A DNA stretch of 64,000 nt from the NCBI RefSeq assembly GCF_000616095.1, contig NZ_BAMS01000004.1:62001-126000 (forward strand), read 5' to 3'. The first letter of the stretch is position 1; each line of letters begins with the position of its first letter. Positions 3 through 14,184 of this stretch are shown in pieces. Origin of the DNA: Sneathiella glossodoripedis JCM 23214. Lineage in GTDB: Bacteria; Pseudomonadota; Alphaproteobacteria; Sneathiellales; Sneathiellaceae. The position numbers were made by a program, and so were the translations under genes. The notes below the pieces were generated by a model that worked only from the letters and a program-made list of their open reading frames with translations, was not told the DNA's origin and did not search any database.

Positions 3-755
3 GTCCTGACGCCGATCACTAATGGTGAAACAGGGTTGCAATTGTCGCAGCAGGATCCTCGAATTATTGATAGCGTTTTTATTGAAGCTGGGTCAGGTTT
101 GCCATCAACAAATCTATTTGGTCTCAAAATGAGCGGTTATCCCGGCTTTTACTTCTGTGCCGTTTTGTTGATCATCTGTTTTTATATTTCAATGCGGATT
201 TTCAGGTCGCCTTTTGGATTGATGCTTCGCGGTATCAAATCAAACCAAAACCGAATGAGATATACTGGTTTGAACACGCGCCCCTACATGCTCACGGCTT
301 TTGTAATCTCGGGTATGTATGCGGGTTTGGCTGGTTCTCTGTTGGCTATAACAGATCCTCTAGCTGGTGCAGAGCGGATGCAATGGACAGCATCTGGTGA
401 AGTTGTGCTTATGACAATTTTGGGGGGTGTTGGTACCTTGGCGGGACCGATGCTTGGTGCAGGGCTCATTAAATATTTTGAAAATATTTTCTCTGCTTTC
501 AATAACAATGTGCTGATGGAAATTTTTTCATTCTTACCCAACGCTGTCGCAGAAATAATTGTGCCTATTGTTGGTTTGTTTGTTGGAAGTGGCTGGCATT
601 TGACCCTCGGTATTCTGTTTATGGTCATTGTAATTTATCTTCCTGGCGGAATTGTTGAGGGATTATCACGCCTTGCAAAATTCGCAGCTGGAGAGAGAAA
701 AAGTTCAAAAATTGCTGGGGGGAATACTTCCCCTCAGGATCAACCGGGTGAATAG
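3..755 (+). CDS. livM: Branched-chain amino acid-type ABC transporter permease LivM (5' partial)
   Basis: Inner-membrane permease subunit of a Liv/HAAT-family ABC importer. The open frame runs back to base 3, before the first usable start, so the N-terminus lies outside the window; about 250 residues are visible against roughly 320-350 for the family. Several hydrophobic segments are present. A charged cytoplasmic stretch (near bases 200-290) with the [13 protein letters not shown] pattern matches the region that contacts the ATPase in LivM proteins. The segment [16 protein letters not shown] is the conserved LivM permease signature. livG follows after 12 bases and livF after that, so this is a standard liv operon. 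The substrate cannot be told from sequence; these systems also carry amides, urea or short acids, and the downstream acs does not settle it. Confidence 0.9.
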
Positions 756-767
756 GGGGTAGTTGGT

Positions 768-1526
768 ATGAGTGATTTGGTTCTTCACCTGGATAATATT
801 CAGAAAAGCTTTGGTGGTTTGAGTGCTCTTTCCGATGTTAATTTACATGTGGAAGAAGGAACAACACATGCGATAATCGGTCCTAACGGGGCTGGAAAAT
901 CTACCTTGTTGAATGTCTGTATCGGTAGACTGAAGCCTGACTCGGGCCATGTCACTTTCAAGGGGCAGGAGCTGACTGGCCGTGAGCCGCATGAAATCGC
1001 ACAGATGGGCGTGGCCCGGGTGTTTCAAACGCCAGAGATTTTCCCTGAAATGACTTTATTGGAAAACGTTATGTTACCGGCTTTTTCCAAACGTGATGGG
1101 GCTTTCAAGCTGAACGCTTATTCTGGATTGGCGCAACAGGGAGATATTCGGGATGAGGCAGAACATATTCTTGAAGATGTTGGGCTGGCTGATCAGATGT
1201 TGCAAGAAGCTGGGAGTTTATCCCGCGGTGATAAAAGGCGTTTAGAGCTTGGTATGTGCCTGATTTTGCGCCCTCGCCTATTGTTGCTGGATGAGCCCAC
1301 TGCCGGTATGTCTCGTCATGATACAAACCGAACAATCGATTTGCTTAAGAAAATCAAAAGTCGTGGGATGACCAAGGTGATTATTGAGCATGATATGCAT
1401 GTGGTTTTTAGCCTGGCTGACAAGGTTAGCGTGCTTGCGCGGGGTGAGATTATCGCAGGGGGTAAACCCGAAGATGTTCGCGAAAACCCCAAGGTAAAAG
1501 AGGCGTATCTGGGAGGAGCCCACTAA
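768..1526 (+). CDS. livG: ABC transporter ATP-binding protein LivG
   Basis: ATPase subunit (252 aa) of the Liv-type importer. Walker A is GPNGAGKST near residue 38, the Q-loop is in ARVFQTPEIF, and Walker B is LLLLDEPTAGM with the switch histidine in IIEHDM. The signature is SLSRGDKRRLELG, a slight departure from the usual LSHGEQR form. The C-terminal AYLG motif is typical of LivG rather than LivF. It starts 12 bases after livM and shares one base with livF (stop/start TAATG), so translation is probably coupled. Confidence 0.92.
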   Translation: MSDLVLHLDNIQKSFGGLSALSDVNLHVEEGTTHAIIGPNGAGKSTLLNVCIGRLKPDSGHVTFKGQELTGREPHEIAQMGVARVFQTPEIFPEMTLLENVMLPAFSKRDGAFKLNAYSGLAQQGDIRDEAEHILEDVGLADQMLQEAGSLSRGDKRRLELGMCLILRPRLLLLDEPTAGMSRHDTNRTIDLLKKIKSRGMTKVIIEHDMHVVFSLADKVSVLARGEIIAGGKPEDVRENPKVKEAYLGGAH

Positions 1527-2242
1527 TGTCAGAGCAAAATGCATTTTTTAGTGTTCGCGATATTCACGCCTATTACGGTGAGTCCTATATTGTGCAAGGG
1601 GTTTCTTTCGATGTAGAGGAAGGTGAAATAGTTGCCCTCCTTGGACGGAACGGAGCTGGCAAAACATCCACTTTACGAGCTTTGGCGCGGGTCGATGAGC
1701 CCGCTCTAACTCAAGGTGAAATTTATCTAAATGGGCAGGCCGTTCATGAAATGAAGAGCTATCAGGCGGCGCAAGCTGGGATCCAACTCGTGCCGGAAGA
1801 TCGTCGAATAATAGGCGGGCTGACAGTTGAGGAAAACCTGATCCTCTCGCAAGTTGAAGAGCCAAAAGGCTGGGAGATTGAGAAAATTTATGATCATTTT
1901 CCTCGCTTGGGTGAGCGTCGTAATCAGGAAGCGACGACCATGTCTGGCGGTGAACAACAAATGCTTGCCGTGGCGCGGGCATTGGCACGGGATGTAAAAA
2001 TTCTATTCCTTGATGAACCTTATGAAGGACTTGCTCCTGTCATCGTCGAAGAAATTGAACGTATTCTGATAGAGGTTCGTAAACTGGGCATCACGACGAT
2101 AATTGTTGAACAGAATGCAGTCGCGGCGCTTCAATTGGCCGATAAAGCGCTCATACTCGATATGGGCAAAATCGCTTTTCGCGGAAGTGCACAAGAAGTG
2201 TTGGATAATCAGGAACTACGTCACGAATACTTAGCGATTTGA
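1526..2242 (+). CDS. livF: ABC transporter ATP-binding protein LivF
   Basis: Second ATPase (238 aa) of the Liv-type importer, forming a heterodimer with LivG under the membrane. Walker A is GRNGAGKTSTLRAL, the signature is TMSGGEQQMLAVARAL and Walker B is ILFLDEPYEGLAP, all in the arrangement usual for LivF; it ends with the family's RHEYLAI tail. It overlaps the end of livG by one base. After its stop there are about 160 bases before the acs start and no clear intrinsic terminator. Confidence 0.92.
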   Translation: MSEQNAFFSVRDIHAYYGESYIVQGVSFDVEEGEIVALLGRNGAGKTSTLRALARVDEPALTQGEIYLNGQAVHEMKSYQAAQAGIQLVPEDRRIIGGLTVEENLILSQVEEPKGWEIEKIYDHFPRLGERRNQEATTMSGGEQQMLAVARALARDVKILFLDEPYEGLAPVIVEEIERILIEVRKLGITTIIVEQNAVAALQLADKALILDMGKIAFRGSAQEVLDNQELRHEYLAI

Positions 2243-2401: not shown

Positions 2402-4345
2402 ATGTCCGTAAATGAAGTTTATCCAGTGCCGGCAGAGACAGCGAATACGGCGTGGATTGATAACGCAAAATATGAAGCTATGTATAACGCCTCCATCGAA
2501 AACCCGGAAAAATTTTGGGCGGAACATGGAAAACGCGTGGACTGGATAAAGCCTTATACAAAAGTCAAAGACGTTTCCTATGAAGAGAAAGATCTTCACA
2601 TCAAGTGGTTCGAGGATGGCACATTAAATGTCAGTGCCAATTGTCTGGATCGACATCTCGCTAAAAGGGCGGATCAGACTGCTATCATATGGGAAGGCGA
2701 TGAACCCACTGATGATAAAACTCTGACCTACAGAGAGCTTCACGCGGAAGTTTGCAAGCTTGCTAACGCTATGAAGGGGCAAGGCATTAACAAGGGTGAT
2801 CGGGTTACGATCTACATGCCAATGATTGTCGAGGCTGCTGTTGCAATGCTGGCTTGTGCTCGCATTGGTGCCATTCATTCTGTTGTGTTTGGCGGTTTCT
2901 CCCCCGATGCATTGGCCGGTAGAATTCAGGATTGCGAGTCCAACTGTATCATAACTGCCGATGAAGGCGTTCGCGGCGGACGTATAGTCCCATTGAAGGT
3001 GAACACAGACAAGGCGCTGGAGAGTTGCCCTGACTGCAAAACTTGTATCGTTGTTAAACGAACAGGTAATCCTATCAATTGGGTAGAGGGACGGGATCAC
3101 TGGTACCATGAGATTACCGCCAACGTTCCAGCGGAATGCGAACCGGAAGAAATGAATGCAGAAGACCCGCTTTTCATTTTGTATACCTCTGGGTCCACTG
3201 GTAAGCCAAAAGGCGTGTTACACACTAGTGGCGGATATCTGGTATATGCCTCAATGACGCACCAGTATGTGTTTGATTATCATGATGGTGATATTTACTG
3301 GTGTACTGCGGATGTGGGGTGGGTGACCGGCCATAGCTATATACTTTACGGACCGCTTGCTAACGGTGCGACAACACTCATGTTTGAGGGGGTTCCCAAT
3401 TATCCGAACATGTCCCGGTTCTGGGATGTGTGTGACAAGCATAACGTCAATATTTTCTATACTGCCCCGACTGCAATTCGGGCGCTTATGCAGGCCGGTG
3501 ATGAACCCGTAAAAGCAACCTCCCGAAAATCACTGCGGTTACTTGGTTCTGTTGGAGAGCCGATTAATCCTGAAGCCTGGCGGTGGTATCACGAAGTCGT
3601 TGGTGATAAGCGTTGCCCCATCGTTGATACATGGTGGCAAACTGAAACAGGTGGCATTCTGATCACACCGCTACCCGGTGCAACCGACTTGAAACCCGGC
3701 TCGGCAACGCGTCCTTTTTTTGGTGTCGATCCGGTAATGGTTGACAATGATGGTAAGGAACTCGAAGGCGAGTGTGAAGGCGTACTATGCATTCGTGATA
3801 GTTGGCCGGGACAAATGAGAACTGTCTATGGTGACCATGAGCGTTTCTTCCAGACATACTTTGCAACCTTCCCCGGCAAATATTTTTCAGGTGATGGTGC
3901 TCGGCGGGATGCCGATGGATATTACTGGATTACGGGGCGCGTGGATGACGTGATAAATGTGTCTGGGCATCGTATGGGAACAGCGGAAGTAGAGAGTGCT
4001 CTTGTTGCCCATCCAAAAGTAACAGAGGCCGCAGTTGTTGGGTATCCGCATGATATTAAAGGACAGGGTATTTACGCCTATGTGACACTGGCCATGGGTG
4101 AAGAGCCAAGCGATGCATTGAGAAAAGAGCTTGTCACGTGGGTTCGACAGGAAATTGGTCCCATTGCTGCTCCTGACTTAATTCAGTGGGCGCCAGGTCT
4201 ACCGAAGACGCGTTCAGGGAAAATTATGCGCCGGATATTACGGAAGGTTGCTGAAGACGATTTTGGCAGCCTTGGGGATACATCCACGCTAGCGGATCCA
4301 TCAGTCGTGGACGAGTTGATTGAAAATAGAATGAATAGAAAATAA
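2402..4345 (+). CDS. acs: Acetate--CoA ligase (acetyl-CoA synthetase)
   Basis: Activates acetate to acetyl-CoA through acetyl-AMP in the cytoplasm. The start at 2402 gives 647 aa, close to the E. coli enzyme (652 aa), and has a purine-rich ribosome site just upstream; the longer TTG frame from 2300 adds 34 residues unlike the family. The adenylate-forming core motif [11 protein letters not shown], the [11 protein letters not shown] motif and the C-terminal [11 protein letters not shown] motif are all present. Lys607 in the last motif is the residue that is acetylated to switch the enzyme off in characterised Acs proteins. It is followed by a strong hairpin terminator and then by a receiver protein and a symporter-kinase fusion, a neighbourhood that in other bacteria (CrbS/CrbR) controls acs expression. 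Confidence 0.96.
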
Positions 4346-4520: not shown

Positions 4521-4898
4521 ATGTCAAATACAGTGCTAGTCGTTGAAGATGAGCCAAATATAGTATTATCTCTGCAATTTGTTATGCGACAGGCAGGGTA
4601 CACAGTGCGTGTTGCTTCAGATGGAGAGCAGGCGCTGAAGGCTGTCGCCGAGTATGTGCCTGATTTGGTGTTGTTGGATATTATGTTGCCCAAACGTGAC
4701 GGTTTCGCTGTTTGCGAGGAAATTCGAAATAATCCAGCCTGCAAGAATGTTAAAATCATTATGTTGTCTGCCAAAAGTAGAGAGGCCGATCGGGAGCGAG
4801 CCTTGAAGCTGGGGGCTGACGAATTTATGACCAAGCCTTTTTCCACCCGAGAATTGGGTGACCTGGCGAAACGGTTACTCAAGATTGAAATTTCCTGA
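4521..4898 (+). CDS. Receiver-only response regulator
   Basis: Single CheY-like receiver domain of 125 aa with no output domain. The acidic pocket is VVEDEP (residues 8-12), the phospho-acceptor is Asp53 in LLDIMLP, the switch Ser83 follows IIML, and the conserved lysine is Lys105 in MTKPF. I chose ATG 4521 because GGGAGGGA lies about 10 bases upstream and the residues before it (from 4473) do not belong to the fold. It is followed after 30 bases by a small membrane protein and then by a histidine kinase fused to a transporter, so it is the likely phosphorylation partner of that kinase. With no DNA-binding domain it must act by protein contact or as a relay. Confidence 0.88.
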   Translation: MSNTVLVVEDEPNIVLSLQFVMRQAGYTVRVASDGEQALKAVAEYVPDLVLLDIMLPKRDGFAVCEEIRNNPACKNVKIIMLSAKSREADRERALKLGADEFMTKPFSTRELGDLAKRLLKIEIS

Positions 4899-4928
4899 GT
4901 GAGCCTCTCGGTTATAAGGGGGCAATAA

Positions 4929-5210
4929 ATGCAACGAACCGGACGAAAAAAAGAGTGGGCAATTTTTGTGTTTTGCCTTTTTTTTCTGGGCATCACGCCA
5001 CCTGTTTTAATGGTATTTGATAAACCGACTCTGGTTTTCAGCTTTCCTCTTAGTTTTTTGTATTTATATGGGTTTTGGGCGTTAGTGATCGTTTTTATTG
5101 CGATCGGAGCCCGAAAAAGGCAAATGCATGATGCTGCGAAAATGCAAATGCCAACCCCCTCGAATGACACCATTTTAAATGAAAGTTTGGGGGCTGAGGA
5201 TGCCAAGTAG
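4929..5210 (+). CDS. Small two-TM membrane protein, putative companion of the symporter-kinase
   Basis: A 93-residue protein with a basic N-terminus, two hydrophobic segments (about residues 10-29 and 38-60) and a polar 30-residue tail. The FPLSFLYLYGFW segment before the second helix resembles the small subunits (DUF3311/DUF4212-like) that accompany solute:sodium symporters; this family placement is inference. It overlaps the start of the symporter-kinase by 11 bases, so the two are translationally coupled and probably act as one complex. No catalytic motif is visible. Confidence 0.7.
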   Translation: MQRTGRKKEWAIFVFCLFFLGITPPVLMVFDKPTLVFSFPLSFLYLYGFWALVIVFIAIGARKRQMHDAAKMQMPTPSNDTILNESLGAEDAK

Positions 5211-7958
5211 CGTTGTCATCACGGCCTCTTTTTTATATTTGGGCTTATTGTTTGCAATTGCGCATTATGTGGACACACGCAGTAGCCTGAAGAACGTATT
5301 GTCGAGAAATCCGTATATTTATACGCTGTCAATTGCGGTGTTTTGTACTTCATGGACTTATTATGGAAGTGTTGGCCGAGCCGCTACATCAGGTTTGGAT
5401 TTTCTTCCCATATATCTGGGGCCAACATTGGTTTTTGTTCTGTGGTCATTTATCTGGATAAAAATTATTCGGATATGCAAGCAGAACAGAATTACTTCAA
5501 TAGCGGATTTTATAGCGTCGAGATATGGGAAACGATCAGTTGGTGGTTGGTAACTATAATTGCAGTGATTGGGACGATGCCATACATATCACTCCAATTA
5601 AAATCAATCGCGACCAGTTTTCGAATATTGATTACCTATTCGGGCGGTGGCAAAATTCCGGAAATTCCTATTGAACCTATATTTTTTATCGATACGACGT
5701 TCATCGTAGCGATTGCTCTTGCGCTTTTTGCGATATTGTTTGGTACCCGTCACATTGATGCAAGTGAACACCATGAAGGACTGGTTGCGGCGATTGCGTT
5801 TGAGTCTGTGGTGAAACTCGTAGCGTTCCTGTGTGTTGGAATTTTTGTGACCTATGGCATATTCGACGGCTTTGCAGACATATTTCAAAGGGCTTCTGTC
5901 GATCCCGAACTGGAGAGATTATTTACCGTAAATCAGGGAAATGATTACAGCCTGTGGATAACCATGATAATTCTATCGATGGCTGCTATCATATGTTTGC
6001 CGCGCCAGTTTTATATTACAGCCGTGGAAAATCCCGACGAAGGGTATGTGCGAAAAGCTACCTGGCTATTCCCTGCCTATCTTTTGGTGATCAATTTGTT
6101 TGTATTGCCGATCGCACTGGGAGGAAAACTTGCGTTCGCAAGCGCAGCTGTGGATGCTGATATGTTCGTGCTGACCGTACCCCTTTATTATGATCATGGG
6201 ACCATTTCCCTAATCGCATTTTTAGGAGGTCTCTCTGCGGCGACCTCAATGGTGATTGTGGCAGCGATTGCACTTGCAACAATGGTGTGCAACGATCTGG
6301 TTATGCCAATACTTCTTCGGTGGAAATGGTTTAAAGCAGATAAAAATACCGATTTGACCGGGTTGCTGCTGGCGATACGCAGAGGCAGTATTCTGATTAT
6401 CCTTATACTCGGGTATGGCTATTATCGTTTTGCAAGTGAGTCCTATTCGTTGGTGACAATTGGTCTAGTGTCTTTTGCCGCTGCCGCGCAATTCGCTCCT
6501 GCAATAATCGGGGGAATATTTTGGAAAAATGGAACCTTTAATGGTGCAATTGTTGGGTTATCTCTCGGATTTATTGTCTGGATGTATACTCTATTTTTAC
6601 CCTCACTTGCGCAGTCAGGATGGTTGCCGATCAGTTTTATTGAGCAGGGGCCGTTCGGTCTTAGCTGGTTAAAACCTTACTCTTTGTTGGGACTTGAAGG
6701 TTTTGATCGCTTAACCCATGCCTTGATCTGGTCAATGATGTTCAATGTCGGTGGATATTGGGTAATTTCCTTATTGAGTCACCAAACAGCAATTGAGCGA
6801 ATTCAGGCAAAATTATTTGTGGACGTGTTTAAGCTCACAGAACGTGGTAACGACAATACCTATTGGAAGGGGTCTGTAACCGTCGAAGAGCTTCAGCAGT
6901 TGGTAGGGAGATTTGTTGGGGTCGGCCGCGTCGCGGAAGCCTTCGATCAATTTGCCCAGGAACGCAGTATTACACTTCGAAAAAATCAGGTGGTAGACGC
7001 TCCTCTGCTGGAATATGCGGAGCGACTGCTGGCAGGGTCTATCGGATCAGCCACGGCAAGGGTATTGATCGGCTCTATCGTCAAGGGCGAAATTGTGAGT
7101 ATTGATGAGGTTTATCGCATTCTGGATGAGACCAGCCAGGTGATTGAATATAGCCATCGGTTGGAGCAAAAATCAGCAGAACTGGAAGAGGCCACCCGGC
7201 AATTACAGTTGGCCAATGATCGTTTGAAGGAACTGGATTCACTAAAGGATGATTTTTTGTCCATGGTTAGCCACGAGTTACGTACGCCGTTGACTAGTTT
7301 GCGAGCTTTTGGAGAGATTTTGTCGGACAATCCGGATGTTCCAATTGAGGAGAGAGCTCGGTTTTTGGGAATAATTATTACCGAAAGTGAGAGATTAACT
7401 CGTTTGATTGATCAATTGCTGGACCTTGCCAAGATGGAGGCAGGAAGAATGGATTGGCAGCTGGCAGAGGTCGACTTGGTGTCAACAATCGATGAAGCGG
7501 TTACAGCGCTAAACGGCCTGATTAAGGAGAAGGAAATTATACTAACCACAGACATACCTGAGAGTCTCCCGTCGGTTCAGGCAGACAGGGATCAGTTAAT
7601 TCAATTGGTCATTAATTTGGTCTCAAACGCGATAAAGTTTTGTAACCCACGGAATGGTAAAATCCATCTTTCAGTGTGCCGCGACAATGATTGGATCAAA
7701 ATATCGGTTTTGGATAATGGAATGGGCGTTCCCGCTCCACTTAAAGAGAAGATCTTTGAGCGCTTTCATCAAAGCGTATCAGCAACAGGCAACAAGCCAC
7801 AAGGTTCCGGTTTGGGATTGGCGATTTGCAGGCAGATCGTAACATATCTAGGAGGTGAAATCTGGGCTGAAAATAGCCAGCAAGGAGGCGCATGCTTCAC
7901 TTTTACACTTCCGCTCCAAGCTGAAACCGTTGACAAAAAAATCAAGACTGACGCTTAG
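5200..7958 (+). pseudogene. Sodium:solute symporter-sensor histidine kinase fusion (apparent frameshift)
   Basis: CrbS/CbrA-type sensor: an N-terminal SLC5 symporter domain with many TM segments (to about residue 510), a STAC domain (about 530-640), a short coiled coil, a HisKA domain with FLSMVSHELRTPLTS (His near 690) and an HATPase domain with NLVSNAIKF, DNGMGVP and GSGLGLAI boxes. As printed the frame breaks: 5200-5553 encodes SIADFIASRYGKRSVGG then a stop, while the following frame continues with LVTIIAVIGTMPYISLQLKSI, the next residues expected in this family. One extra T in the TT run at 5547-5548 joins them into 919 aa. It lacks the PAS and receiver domains of Vibrio CrbS; the separate receiver two genes upstream may replace the latter. 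Its stop interlocks with that of the convergent TauE gene. Confidence 0.85.
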
Positions 7959-8734
7959 AAGCCGATAGTCGCTCGGTAGATCATTGACGCGCCGATTAAT
8001 AAAATGAGGCTTAAAACCACCTTGCGGAATAATTCCTGATCGACTTTCTTGCGAAGTTGCGTTCCCAGCCATATGAAAAACATGATCGGTACCATTCCCA
8101 GAAGGCCGTATACTGCCTCAAGAAGGCCAAGGTGGTCTGTCCGCTGAAGGCAAATGGCAAGTAGGGTGCTGCCGCTAAATAAAAGTACGCTAACAGCGGA
8201 AACAAAACGCTCTTTTTCAAGTCCGACAGCTACCAGAAAGAATATTGGCATGATGGCAAACAAGGATGTCATGCCACCAATTATGCCTGAAAAAACTCCG
8301 ATAACAGGTGCTATAAAGGCCTGCTTCGTTTTTACAAAATCAAAGGTCAGCCCCAGTAACTCCATCGAAGTGACTAAGATTAACACGATACCCAAAATAA
8401 TGGACAAAGTATTGGTGTCTGCAACTGCGAGAAAATATACGCCAATTGGCAGGGTTACGAGAACCGTCAGATAGAGTGACCAGTGTCGCGCAACTGATCC
8501 TTTGACATCGCCAGCAATGAGCATTTGGTAGAGGTTGCTCAAGACTAAAGGGACCGCCAATACTGAAATGGCTGTTGGAAGAGGTAGTACCATGATTAAA
8601 ATTGGTACTGATACAGTCGGCAATCCGAAAGAACTAATGCCCTTAACAAGAGCACCCAAGCTTAAGGCTAGGCAGATCACTGCAAAGTGGATGATGTTAA
8701 AATCGGTTATTAATTGATCTATCAATGGGGTCAT
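7955..8734 (-). CDS. TauE/SafE-family sulfite/anion exporter permease
   Basis: A 259-residue integral membrane protein, almost wholly hydrophobic with about eight TM helices in two repeats, typical in length for TauE/SafE (DUF81) proteins. The GALVKGISSFGLPTVSVP segment in the first repeat and the GVFSGIIGGMTSLFAIMP segment in the second are the paired glycine-rich motifs of the family. Family members export sulfite, sulfoacetate or related organic anions; the substrate here is unknown. Its stop codon interlocks with that of the convergent symporter-kinase gene. The region 8735-8933 upstream shows no clear feature. Confidence 0.85.
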   Translation of the reverse strand: MTPLIDQLITDFNIIHFAVICLALSLGALVKGISSFGLPTVSVPILIMVLPLPTAISVLAVPLVLSNLYQMLIAGDVKGSVARHWSLYLTVLVTLPIGVYFLAVADTNTLSIILGIVLILVTSMELLGLTFDFVKTKQAFIAPVIGVFSGIIGGMTSLFAIMPIFFLVAVGLEKERFVSAVSVLLFSGSTLLAICLQRTDHLGLLEAVYGLLGMVPIMFFIWLGTQLRKKVDQELFRKVVLSLILLIGASMIYRATIGF

Positions 8735-11030: not shown

Positions 11031-14000
11031 TTATTCAGAAGTGTAACTAGGCAGGACAATTCGGGCACGCGTTCCATCGCCAGACTTACTGTCAATATCG
11101 ACAGTACCATTTGACTGGTGAGCAAAACCATAGACCATACTCAGTCCAAGCCCGGTTCCCTTACCAACCTCCTTCGTTGTAAAGAAGGGCTCAAAGACGT
11201 GGGCGAGGGTTTGTGGATCCATTCCCTTACCCGTGTCAGTAACTTCAAGCCAGCTATAGCAACCCGGGGAAAGGTCAGGATATAGCTCTCTATTTGTATT
11301 GAGGTCCAGCATACCTGTGGAAATTCTTAGAATGCCGCCATTGGGCATTGCATCCCGTGAGTTAATACACAAATTCATCAAAGCGTTTTCCAGTTGGTTT
11401 GCATCTGCAAATACAGGTGGCGTCTCATCGTTAAACTCTGTTTCTATAACGATAGTTTCACCAAGCAGGCGATCAACCAGCGTCAATATTCCGCTAACCA
11501 GCTCGTTCAGGTTTACTGCGACCGGTCTTAACGATTGTTTACGTGAATAGGCCAGCAAGCGTTGCGTTAAAGTTGCTCCCTTTATAGCAGAAGCCTCAAC
11601 TATTTTAAGATGGCTTTCCAGTTGCAGGTCTTTTTCAATTTTTTCTCTCGCCAGCTCTACATTGCCAAGAATTACCGCCAGTATGTTGTTGAAATCATGT
11701 GCGATGCCACCTGTCAGTTGGCCGAGTGCCTCCATTTTTTGTGACTGACGCAACTGTTCTTCCATCTGATGAGCCTGTTCATCAGCAATAATCTGATGAG
11801 TGATGTCGCGCCCGGCGCCTCTGTAGCCTTTAAACTCACCGTTATTGTCAAATATCGGCATCCCACTGATAGAAGCATATAAAACACTACCATCATTGCG
11901 GGTTGCGGCGTAGGTGAACTCCCTAAAAGGTTTATGATTTAAGATAATATCGTGATGCTCTCGCCAAACCTCTTCGTCTGCGTATTTCTCCAGTACTTCC
12001 ATACGTGACTTGCCCATAAAGTCATCAGCAGATAAACCTGTCATTTCTTCAAAACGATCAGAGACATGATTGAAAATGTGATTTTCATCTGTTGCCCAAA
12101 ACCAGTCGGATGCTGAACTAGCGAAGGCTTCGAATTGCTCTTCGCTTTTTCGAAGCGCATCTTCAATCTTTCGGCGCTCCTCTATTTCTGAACGTAATTC
12201 CTCTGTCCGTTGAGCGACATGCTGTTCGAGTGTTTCATGAGAAGCTTTTAAAACTTCTTCAGCTTCTTTGATTTGAGAAATGTCGTTTAGCCAAAAGACA
12301 ATTTTGGGTTCATTTTCAATGATTATTGTTGTCCAGCTAATCAGCACCCAAACAGGCTCACCATTATGACGTTGAATTTGCATTTCTTTTGGTTTGACCC
12401 GACCGGTTCGTTTGAACTCCTCTACGAACGCTACTCTGTCTTCCGCTTTCCGCCAAAACTGGAAAGTCGTATCGCCCAACAGGTCTTCCGCTGGCATTTT
12501 TAACAGATTTGACAAGCTTTCATTCACGAATGAAATTTTGCCTGTTTTAATATCAGAAATTCCCAGCGCTACCGGGCTAGCAGCCAGCATATCACGTAAC
12601 GAATTTTCGGATTCAATAATTTTTTTCTGCGCAGCTTTTTCTTCAGATTGATCGATAATCCAGAAAACTGAATAGGGAACACCATCGCGTTCCAAGTATC
12701 TTCCATAAATTTTTGCAGGAAAGGTTTCGCCGTTAAATTTTTTTAAGGACACGTCTGAAAGCGCGTAGCTTTTCTTTTCATCTAGTTGCGTTAGAATTTC
12801 CTGTCGGTTCTCAGGAACTTCCCAAAGAATTGTTGGCTCCAATCCAATTAATGTTCCGCCTGGGGGTTGAAAAAGATCAATAAGGCTCTTGTTTTCTAGG
12901 ATGATTTTATCTGTCTGGAGGTTGGTCATACCAACGCTGATCGGACTAATGGAGAGGATTTCGTAAATGTCTTTTTCTGCCCGTTCACGATCTCTGATCT
13001 CTTCCGTGATTTGAGCAGTTCTTTGGCGTATCTGTTCTTCTAGATCTTGTGCTGCCAGTTTTAATTTGTTTTCGGCCTCCACCAATTCTGTGATTTCGGT
13101 TGCAATCCCAACTGTCGCAAAAACCTTTCCTTCTGAATCTTTCAAAGAAAACTTAACTGTAAGATGATCTTTAATTTCACCATTAACGTTTCTTTTGTCC
13201 TTAACAATGATCGGTAAATCCGAGTTGCGAACTTCTTGGTCGGCTTTCAAGTAGTCTTTCGCGATGTCTTCAGGAAAGATCTCTGTATCATGTTTGCCGA
13301 TCATATATCCGTCTTCCCAGCCGAAAATATGGTTCAGCTTTCTACTGACGACTTGATATCTACTCTGCGTCCTTTACGAAAATATGCGCTGGGCTGTTCT
13401 CGACAATTCCCTGAAAAATCATTTTTGAGTATTCAAGCTCTTTTTCAGTTTTGCGCGTTTCAGTTACATCTAGTACAATCCCAATAATGCCCTGTACGTT
13501 TCCAATTTTGTCCTTAAGTGCAGTTTTTTGGAAAATTACATTTTTTATTTCACCGGAAGAACTCTCATTAATACTCTCCTCGATTTGGACTTCTCCAGTG
13601 TCAAAAATCTCATTGTCAAAATATTGAAACTGGTCAGCCAGTTCTTTTGACACAAGATCATGAGCCGTAAATCCTATAACGTCTTCGCGTTTACGGTCAT
13701 AGAAATCAAGGAACGCTTGGTTACATGCGCGATATCTATGAGCCGTATCTTTGAAATAAGCGGGGGCTGGTATTGCATTTAAAATGAACTCGACGATTTC
13801 TGAACCGTTCAGCGTGACGAGATTGTCAGTAGGGTTAGTATTTCCGAATTCGAATTTACAAATTATATGATTATCAGAAAAGTTAAGCGTCAGTTTGCCT
13901 TTGTGAGAATACGAGCGCGTGTCAATGAGTTCTGCATTGTTCAGGACAAGAGGGGCGGGCGAAGGGTGCGCAAGAAAATTTTGTAGGGAATTGCATGTAT

Positions 14001-14184
14001 TTTCGGAAACTAAATCAACTAACGCGTAGTCTGAATGTGAAGTGCCTTTCAGTATTGTGGTCTGAAAGGAGGCATTGGCATGCAGGATATCTCCTTCGCG
14101 TGTACAGATCGCAGCAGGGACATTAATTAGATCCAGTATCGTTTTGTCCAAGGTGGATATTTGGGTATCAGACACGTTACTCAC
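11031..14184 (-). pseudogene. Multi-PAS sensor histidine kinase (apparent frameshift)
   Basis: Soluble hybrid-less kinase with several PAS domains, a HisKA box GGIAHDFNN and an HATPase domain (DTGKGMD, GKGTGLGLSMVYG). The printed frame stops at 13360 after SPAHIFVKDAE; the next frame resumes immediately with RYQVVSRKLNHIFGWEDGY and runs to 11031, exactly the next part of the same PAS domain. Unlike the other broken genes in the window, frame is restored by two missing bases (giving the PAS consensus DAEGRY) or one extra base. The reconstructed protein is about 1050 aa. The start is GTG 14184, 10 bases after the upstream kinase, so the two kinases form an operon. No response regulator is adjacent, and no TM segment is visible. 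Confidence 0.82.

Follow-up and report, generated by a model that had tools for sequence, protein, structure and literature searches.

A receiver-only response regulator, a CbrX-like membrane protein and an SLC5/STAC kinase beside acs in Sneathiella glossodoripedis: a proposed four-part transceptor two-component system

What output can a single-domain response regulator (RR) have, and how does a transceptor convert transport into signalling? A locus of Sneathiella glossodoripedis JCM 23214 presents a compact and widely distributed case of both open questions. It lies in a window of 64,000 nucleotides (nt), the whole stretch of DNA analysed here (contig NZ_BAMS01000004.1, positions 62,001 to 126,000 of the forward strand; genomes and loci are cited by G and L numbers, the genome of the window being G000). 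Downstream of acs, which encodes an AMP-forming acetyl-CoA synthetase (2402..4345, + strand, start picked by reading; NCBIfam PRK00174, 1116 bits), follow on the same strand and in this order genes for a receiver-only RR (4521..4898, 125 residues), a 93-residue small membrane protein (SM; 4929..5210, two helices by eye) and a histidine kinase (5200..7958). A first-pass annotation had singled out these three genes beside acs, and Pfam and NCBIfam matches together with the coordinates of the open reading frames (ORFs) confirmed it, including the overlap of 11 nt between the end of SM and the beginning of the kinase gene (ATG at 5200). The annotation had regarded the trio as a three-part sensor. 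The three parts are indeed present, but the set is incomplete, since it leaves the RR without an output; the genome data suggest as a fourth part a RamB/ScfR-type regulator bearing a dimerization and histidine phosphotransfer (DHp) domain. We propose, with a probability of about 0.6, that these four proteins make up a two-component system of the SLC5/STAC transceptor type, within a class that lacks PAS.

The kinase gave Pfam matches to HisKA and HATPase_c, with SSF just below the cut-off and with neither PAS nor receiver domain, as had been claimed, and the kinase of S. chungangensis likewise gave HisKA and HATPase_c without PAS or receiver. The kinase of the window was the only SSF match found in its genome at E 0.001. 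In a profile alignment with 10ED, the structure of CbrXA, the kinase family matched over both SLC5 and STAC (positions 6-625, E 2e-101), and SLC5, STAC and then HisKA-HATPase follow one another in the order that marks SLC5/STAC histidine kinases; the codon of the phospho-accepting histidine was placed at 7272-7274 by reading. In CbrA of Pseudomonas, K196 fills the sodium site (PMC13022988; this and the other papers are cited from excerpts). The corresponding position was Lys in 92 of 92 aligned rows, whereas the pocket positions were changed, S53 to Thr in 90 of 92, A56 to Thr in 91 of 92, and F248 to Ser or Ala in all 92. The SLC5 domain is therefore probably proton-linked and probably does not serve histidine, and the neighbouring genes point to acetate or another short carboxylate as its putative ligand.

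Conservation of the cassette was followed in two samples. From a scan of named genomes by kinase similarity alone the best 80 loci were kept, a choice that biases the set towards kinases near the query. These loci span Alpha-, Beta- and Gammaproteobacteria, Desulfobacterales, Myxococcota and Bacteroidota, and include single metagenome-assembled genomes labelled Chloroflexota, Nitrospirota and Cyanobacteriota. A receiver-only RR was found in 74 of the 80 (26 upstream, 48 downstream; two far away or on the opposite strand, L114 and L148). Within the fetched stretch of up to 6 kb on each side, the neighbours included acs in 26 loci, ActP in 35, DUF294 in 42, DUF4212 in 20, a protein with transmembrane (TM), PAS and DEDDh exonuclease parts in 53 and ScfR in 9, and at least one of the acs, ActP, DUF294, DUF4212 and exonuclease genes was near the kinase in 70. 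The second sample was 192 alphaproteobacterial genomes, with an ScfR in 59 and an SLC5 kinase match (E 1e-20) in 49. Among these 49, 31 had a kinase of PAS-less length, 17 had longer ones only, and one held an unclassed fragment (G242); the PAS-less class was set by open-frame length (890-1041 residues) and backed by kinase, SM and RR profiles, and the longer kinases (1103-1417 residues) were assigned to the PAS type from length alone. The RR was detected by profile in 29 of the 31 genomes with a PAS-less kinase.

The small membrane protein was a constant companion of the kinase. The annotation had proposed a check of co-occurrence in other genomes; SM was found upstream of the kinase in 76 of the 77 loci whose upstream sequence reached 300 nt or more (the exception being L148; L139, L149 and L151 were too short on that side to be counted) and in 31 of 31 alphaproteobacterial genomes with a PAS-less kinase. 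The earlier observation is thus more general than one window shows. In a separate search of 60 relatives, the SLC5 part was present in 32 and the SM ORF in 27, one of which (G042) had a weak match with an internal stop and no kinase. SM matched no Pfam or NCBIfam family over the cut-off, and a sequence search of the PDB likewise gave no family. When its profile (77 sequences) was compared with that of CbrX (28 sequences), HHalign returned a probability of 91.2%, against maxima of 15.9% for 60 column shuffles within hydropathy classes and 4.3 for 40 full shuffles, and 0.7 for the reversed profile. SM thus shares with the CbrX family both its homology and its place, as a small membrane peptide encoded 5' of an SLC5 kinase. 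In AlphaFold2, a read-through of SM and SLC5-STAC from L080 was modelled with a mean pLDDT of 84.9 and a pTM of 0.84, and block means reached 90-96 over residues 21-70, the SM hairpin. Structure searches with this model matched SLC5 folds, and 10ED was absent among the matches listed; the mixed alignment A5 comprised 62 rows, 23 of them with the SM part.

CbrX is seen bound to the SLC5 domain of CbrA by cryo-EM (PMC13022988), and its gene overlaps cbrA and is translationally coupled to it (PMC6591292). Since SM is kept beside the kinase and is homologous to CbrX, it is likely a CbrX-type subunit of the symporter domain. The annotation's idea of a symporter subunit stands to that extent, but not its comparison with the small subunits of solute:sodium symporters, as SM had no Pfam match to DUF4212 and an HHalign probability of 9.4% with it. 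With DUF485 the comparison was a Pfam scan, which gave no match over the cut-off. Operons of the acs-yjcH-actP type, with yjcH between acs and actP, resemble the present locus in that a small membrane protein of the DUF4212/DUF485 kind precedes an SLC5 protein near acs; by profile comparison SM belongs to a family different from DUF4212.

Translation of the small ORF might do no more than open the kinase start, leaving the peptide itself without a role. Such a leader would suit the tight junction, as 71 of the 76 small ORFs end at most 50 nt from where the kinase begins. In other loci, SM and the kinase overlap by 8-11 nt (L014, L015 and L019-L022), share a single base (L023-L027 and L029-L033) or leave a gap of 3 nt (L017 and L018). 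A leader would also suit the excerpts on CbrX, where an unrelated peptide of equal length restored CbrA levels in P. putida (PMC6591292) and CbrX was not needed for growth on histidine (PMC13022988). In the assays that these two sources describe, the CbrX peptide itself was thus dispensable for growth or reporter output, so that a signalling role of SM can be claimed only with caution. A mere leader, however, should hardly leave a hairpin that a profile recognises across phyla as homologous to CbrX, nor would it be expected at L091, L128 and L131, where more than 100 nt separate SM from the kinase, or to co-purify with CbrA and be resolved in its structure (PMC13022988). We regard the leader explanation as improbable and keep SM as a putative subunit.

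The review PMC8871633, as excerpted, terms CbrAB unique to Pseudomonadaceae, and the literature searched reported no CbrX relatives outside that family. A 58-residue two-helix small ORF was also found upstream of a GAF-PAS-type kinase (L164). At L074 (4445-7841, on a plasmid of Azoarcus sp. KH32C), a GGDEF-EAL protein matches the SLC5 domain with its N-terminal half, and a CbrX-like ORF of 66 residues lies 4 nt before the chosen start, the annotated start lying later; here the transporter domain seems to be coupled to cyclic-di-GMP and not to a kinase.

The likeness to CbrXA/CbrB of Pseudomonas extends to the SLC5-STAC kinase, the overlapping gene for a two-helix peptide whose product binds the SLC5 domain in CbrXA, and the proton-site lysine. 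CbrA differs in having a PAS domain (seen in the CbrA-type L166) and a regulator of the NtrC (sigma-54) type, whereas the present kinase lacks PAS, has the changed pocket residues given above and is paired with a receiver-only RR. CrbS/CrbR (MxtR/ErdR) and RpuS/RpuR likewise have SLC5-STAC kinases, and CrbS is also tied to acs and acetate genes. Those kinases, however, carry PAS_7 and receiver domains (L163, L172, L175) and work with a LuxR-type regulator, and in the 400 nt preceding kinases of the CrbS, RpuS and Azospirillum-hybrid types (L160-L163, L172, L173, L175) no small ORF with two helices was present. The annotation's suggestion of a route different from CrbSR is supported, there being neither PAS nor receiver in the kinase and no adjacent LuxR regulator. 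In a tree with long branches and many open forks, from which no origin was drawn, eight CrbS/RpuS-like rows grouped with support 83, and 11 alphaproteobacterial PAS-less rows fell outside a group (support 92, open) of the CrbS-like and remaining PAS-less rows. As the CrbS-like rows thus lie between two PAS-less sets, the PAS-less class may be paraphyletic, with CrbS derived from within it. Four rows of the tree (L139, L148, L149 and L151) carry an SM label although they had no small ORF detected.

The RR matched Pfam Response_reg with 107 bits over residues 5-113 and had no output or DNA-binding domain, in agreement with the annotation; the phospho-acceptor D53, S83 and K105 are present by reading. 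One way to give it a place would be a CrbSR-like circuit, in which the kinase would phosphorylate a LuxR-type regulator whose gene lies elsewhere, with the receiver-only RR serving as a competitor or phosphate sink. The association with acs fits such a circuit. Pfam GerE detected two LuxR-domain proteins in the genome, of which the closer, L069 (a receiver-LuxR protein, G000:C12), is 36% identical to the CrbR-type regulator of Azospirillum. The latter, however, shares 49-64% identity with those of Tistrella, Halomonas and S. fredii, which stand beside PAS-receiver kinases, whereas L069 reached 32-37% with the four of them. No clear CrbR was found in the genome, and L069 is a distant candidate for the LuxR-type CrbR that the annotation had allowed for elsewhere. 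Moreover, sites resembling ACTU (at most two mismatches to a pattern from four printed sites) numbered 52 in the window against a chance mean of 54, and within the window no such site immediately precedes acs or the RR, the operon promoter lying 5' of the window. A CrbSR-like circuit is quite unlikely on this evidence. CstR, a single-domain RR of Methylobacterium (PMC13344952), may be relevant to the present one.

The candidate fourth part is encoded outside the window, 5' of it (G000:C9:57338-58993), and divergently from the ATP-binding cassette (ABC) transporter and acs genes; the next listed ORF is 72 bp away. It matched PF09856 with 190 bits and HTH_3 with 50 bits, as RamB/ScfR regulators do, and NCBIfam RamB with 411 bits, below the cut-off of 700. 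The XRE-type helix-turn-helix (HTH), M78-like and C-terminal ScfRs domains are those of PccR, MccR and RamB, regulators of the acetate and propionate kind (PMC10370305). In contrast to these canonical members, it carries a HisKA/DHp insertion, and its kind gives a ScfRs match of reduced length (about 141-144 of 157 positions) and is encoded beside or near the RR-kinase cassette. The extra stretch between the HTH and M78 domains matched a hidden Markov model (HMM) of the kinases' own DHp in 8 of 10 ScfRs (nine from the 80 loci plus the copy of this genome), with up to 67 bits, and the best shuffled or reversed control gave 9 bits. A family-specific DHp HMM scored 47 bits in the genome's own copy. 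Pfam HisKA exceeded its cut-off in four of six DHp-bearing ScfRs (L079, L100, L258, L268), fell short in the genome's own copy (25.9 vs 26.9) and in L103 (18.4), and was absent from both canonical ScfRs examined. No report of a DHp insertion in an ScfR was found in the literature searched; two further ScfR-like proteins are noted in Paracoccus, of which one lies in a cluster together with a two-component system (PMC10370305, excerpt).

The DHp-bearing ScfR tracked the cassette. It occurred in 27 of the 31 genomes with a PAS-less kinase (in 20 within 1 kb of the kinase, in seven farther away or on another contig), and its gene adjoins the RR in Thalassospira and others. Among 30 genomes with an ScfR and no PAS-less kinase, two had fragments that were unreadable (G150, G278), and none of the 28 readable ones had the insertion; second, canonical ScfRs within kinase genomes, such as L222 in G000, also lacked it. 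When the ScfR DHp of G158 was used as a query in eight genomes, the two best places were the DHp-ScfR and then the cassette kinase in all eight, the kinase scoring 43-65 bits and the next place 21-33; in G000 the values were 64.2 and 59.1, then 25.8. We take these matches to reflect shared descent of the kinase and ScfR DHp domains, not pair-wise coevolution; the two domains probably also have a receiver in common. Of 27 ScfR DHp domains, 22 retain the histidine, which is replaced by Phe in the three from Sneathiella and by Gln in two. An acidic residue (Glu) follows its position in 5 of 27, and Thr, Ser or Asn stands four residues on in 27 of 27. As it has no catalytic and ATP-binding (CA) domain, the ScfR DHp should not autophosphorylate, and its function may be docking, dephosphorylation or phosphotransfer; in Sneathiella the Phe excludes phosphotransfer to that residue. 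The two ScfRs with Gln (L269 and L270, in G194 and G281) gave the weakest DHp matches (17-18 bits) and lie on a contig other than that of the kinase, possibly reflecting a changed or decaying output.

We therefore suggest the following course of signalling, arranged from the domain content. The SLC5 domain would bind or carry a small metabolite, and its state would pass through STAC to the DHp-CA core, with SM packing on the SLC5 domain as a structural subunit whose translation is coupled with that of the kinase. The kinase would phosphorylate the receiver-only RR, and the phosphorylated RR would dock on the DHp inserted between the HTH and M78 domains of the ScfR. In most lineages the ScfR DHp, having kept its histidine, could also accept the phosphoryl group in the manner of an Hpt domain; in Sneathiella, with Phe at that position, docking alone would have to suffice. 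The ScfR would then set transcription of the facing ABC-acs operon, its type of C-terminal domain being one that binds acyl-CoA in RamB. Of this scheme, computation shows the domain content, the conservation, the co-occurrence and the kinships with CbrX and between the DHp domains; the order of phosphorylation, the docking, the control of acs and an acetate-like signal are inferred. The nearest precedent for the DHp-ScfR is DivL of Caulobacter, whose kinase core reads phosphorylated DivK (PMC4211667), so that a receiver-only RR is read out there through the core of a kinase-like protein that has no kinase activity; here, by contrast, the DHp sits in a DNA-binding regulator that has no CA domain.

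Several observations weigh against this proposal, besides the dispensability of CbrX cited above. Four of the 31 kinase genomes lack a DHp-ScfR; the ScfR of L151, at a contig edge, had no DHp match, and that of L122 is cut off. In Sneathiella the ScfR gene is about 8 kb from the kinase, and its histidine is Phe in all three genomes. Cognate pairs of kinase and ScfR DHp domains were hardly more alike than non-cognate ones (0.332 vs 0.317), so there is no pair-specific signal, and a Mantel correlation of 0.59, equalled in none of 2000 permutations, can be explained by phylogeny. For the DHp segment of the ScfR, AlphaFold2 gave a poor model (pLDDT 63), whose Foldseek hits, mostly histidine kinases at the top, did not reach E 0.001. 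The kinase frame of the window itself is broken, as described below. Outside Alphaproteobacteria, finally, the RR lies mostly by exonuclease, DUF294 or acs genes (RR then acs in five of seven Bacteroidota loci; RR then a DUF294 gene in five others, L109, L119, L121, L132 and L135), and the ScfR therefore cannot be the universal output.

The exonuclease protein might instead be the main partner of the RR, with the ScfR a lineage-specific addition. Of the 74 loci with an RR, 50 (51 with L105, whose exonuclease protein was cross-matched by the ScfR profile) have a same-strand TM-PAS-DEDDh exonuclease gene at most 400 nt from it, and the RR comes first in 48. With an E of at most 0.01, the DHp HMM matched 40 of the 47 exonuclease proteins, and the 30 alignments shown had, by eye, no His at the histidine position; degenerate, His-less DHp domains of this kind are seen at L080, L090-L093, L099, L126 and others. 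Three of the four kinase genomes without a DHp-ScfR (G135, G166, G206) have the order RR-exonuclease-SM-kinase; in the fourth, G139, no exonuclease gene was found nearby. The DHp match of the exonuclease proteins is weaker than that of the ScfR, however (38 vs 77 bits at best), and no exonuclease gene was found in the three Sneathiella kinase regions examined (10-16 kb). An exonuclease protein as the main partner is therefore unlikely, but given its DHp and its place beside the RR, the outputs of the RR may differ between phyla. In its widest form, the proposal is that the receiver-only RR controls transcription through a DHp of its own kinase's type, inserted in a metabolite-sensing RamB/ScfR regulator, that in other phyla the same RR engages the His-less DHp of an exonuclease protein, and that the kinase belongs to a phylum-spanning class with CbrX-type subunits; for this we see the odds as evenly balanced.

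The break in the kinase gene had been missed by the first-pass annotation. The gene is not one open frame: frame 1 is open from 5200 until a stop immediately past 5550, and the homologous sequence resumes in frame 3 at about 5547. At the site of the break (5541..5550, + strand), 11 nt lie between a TCA and a GTA codon, against 15 nt in the nearest relative, L014, and 28 aligned relatives read through. If the mutation were real, the system would be dead in this strain, and a difference of 4 nt is indeed not a simple homopolymer slip. Yet identity to the nearest relative, G005, is still 95% in one part of the kinase and 82% in the other, and the upstream operon has another break, in the gene for the ABC substrate-binding protein (L225 3639-4981; G000:C9:59138-60480, 5' of the window), where the frame changes at 4625 with 94-97% identity to G005 on both sides; this second break points to insertions or deletions from assembly. 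An assembly error is therefore more likely than decay, and we hold a dead system to be doubtful.

If the four-part system holds, it offers a route by which one receiver would read both its kinase and a kinase-type docking domain inserted in an acetate-type regulator. CbrX, confined to Pseudomonadaceae in the literature excerpts searched, is extended to a protein family found in several phyla. The most surprising element, a metabolite-type regulator that has a kinase docking domain and tracks the cassette, lies outside the window.

In the surroundings, genes of the LivM, LivG and LivF types of ABC transporter (36..2242, + strand, named by eye) precede acs and begin 5' of the window. All 20 same-genus loci (L043-L062) have acs upstream of the RR, SM and kinase genes. 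Promoter and terminator scans gave nothing above chance, and an intergenic alignment suggests a promoter between acs and the RR in part of the genus. On the other side, a gene for a TauE/SafE-like membrane protein (by eye; 7955-8734, - strand) converges on the kinase gene, the two stop codons overlapping. Farther downstream, a PAS-rich histidine kinase (11031-14184, - strand) is split in two frames relative to a G005 kinase of 1060 residues.

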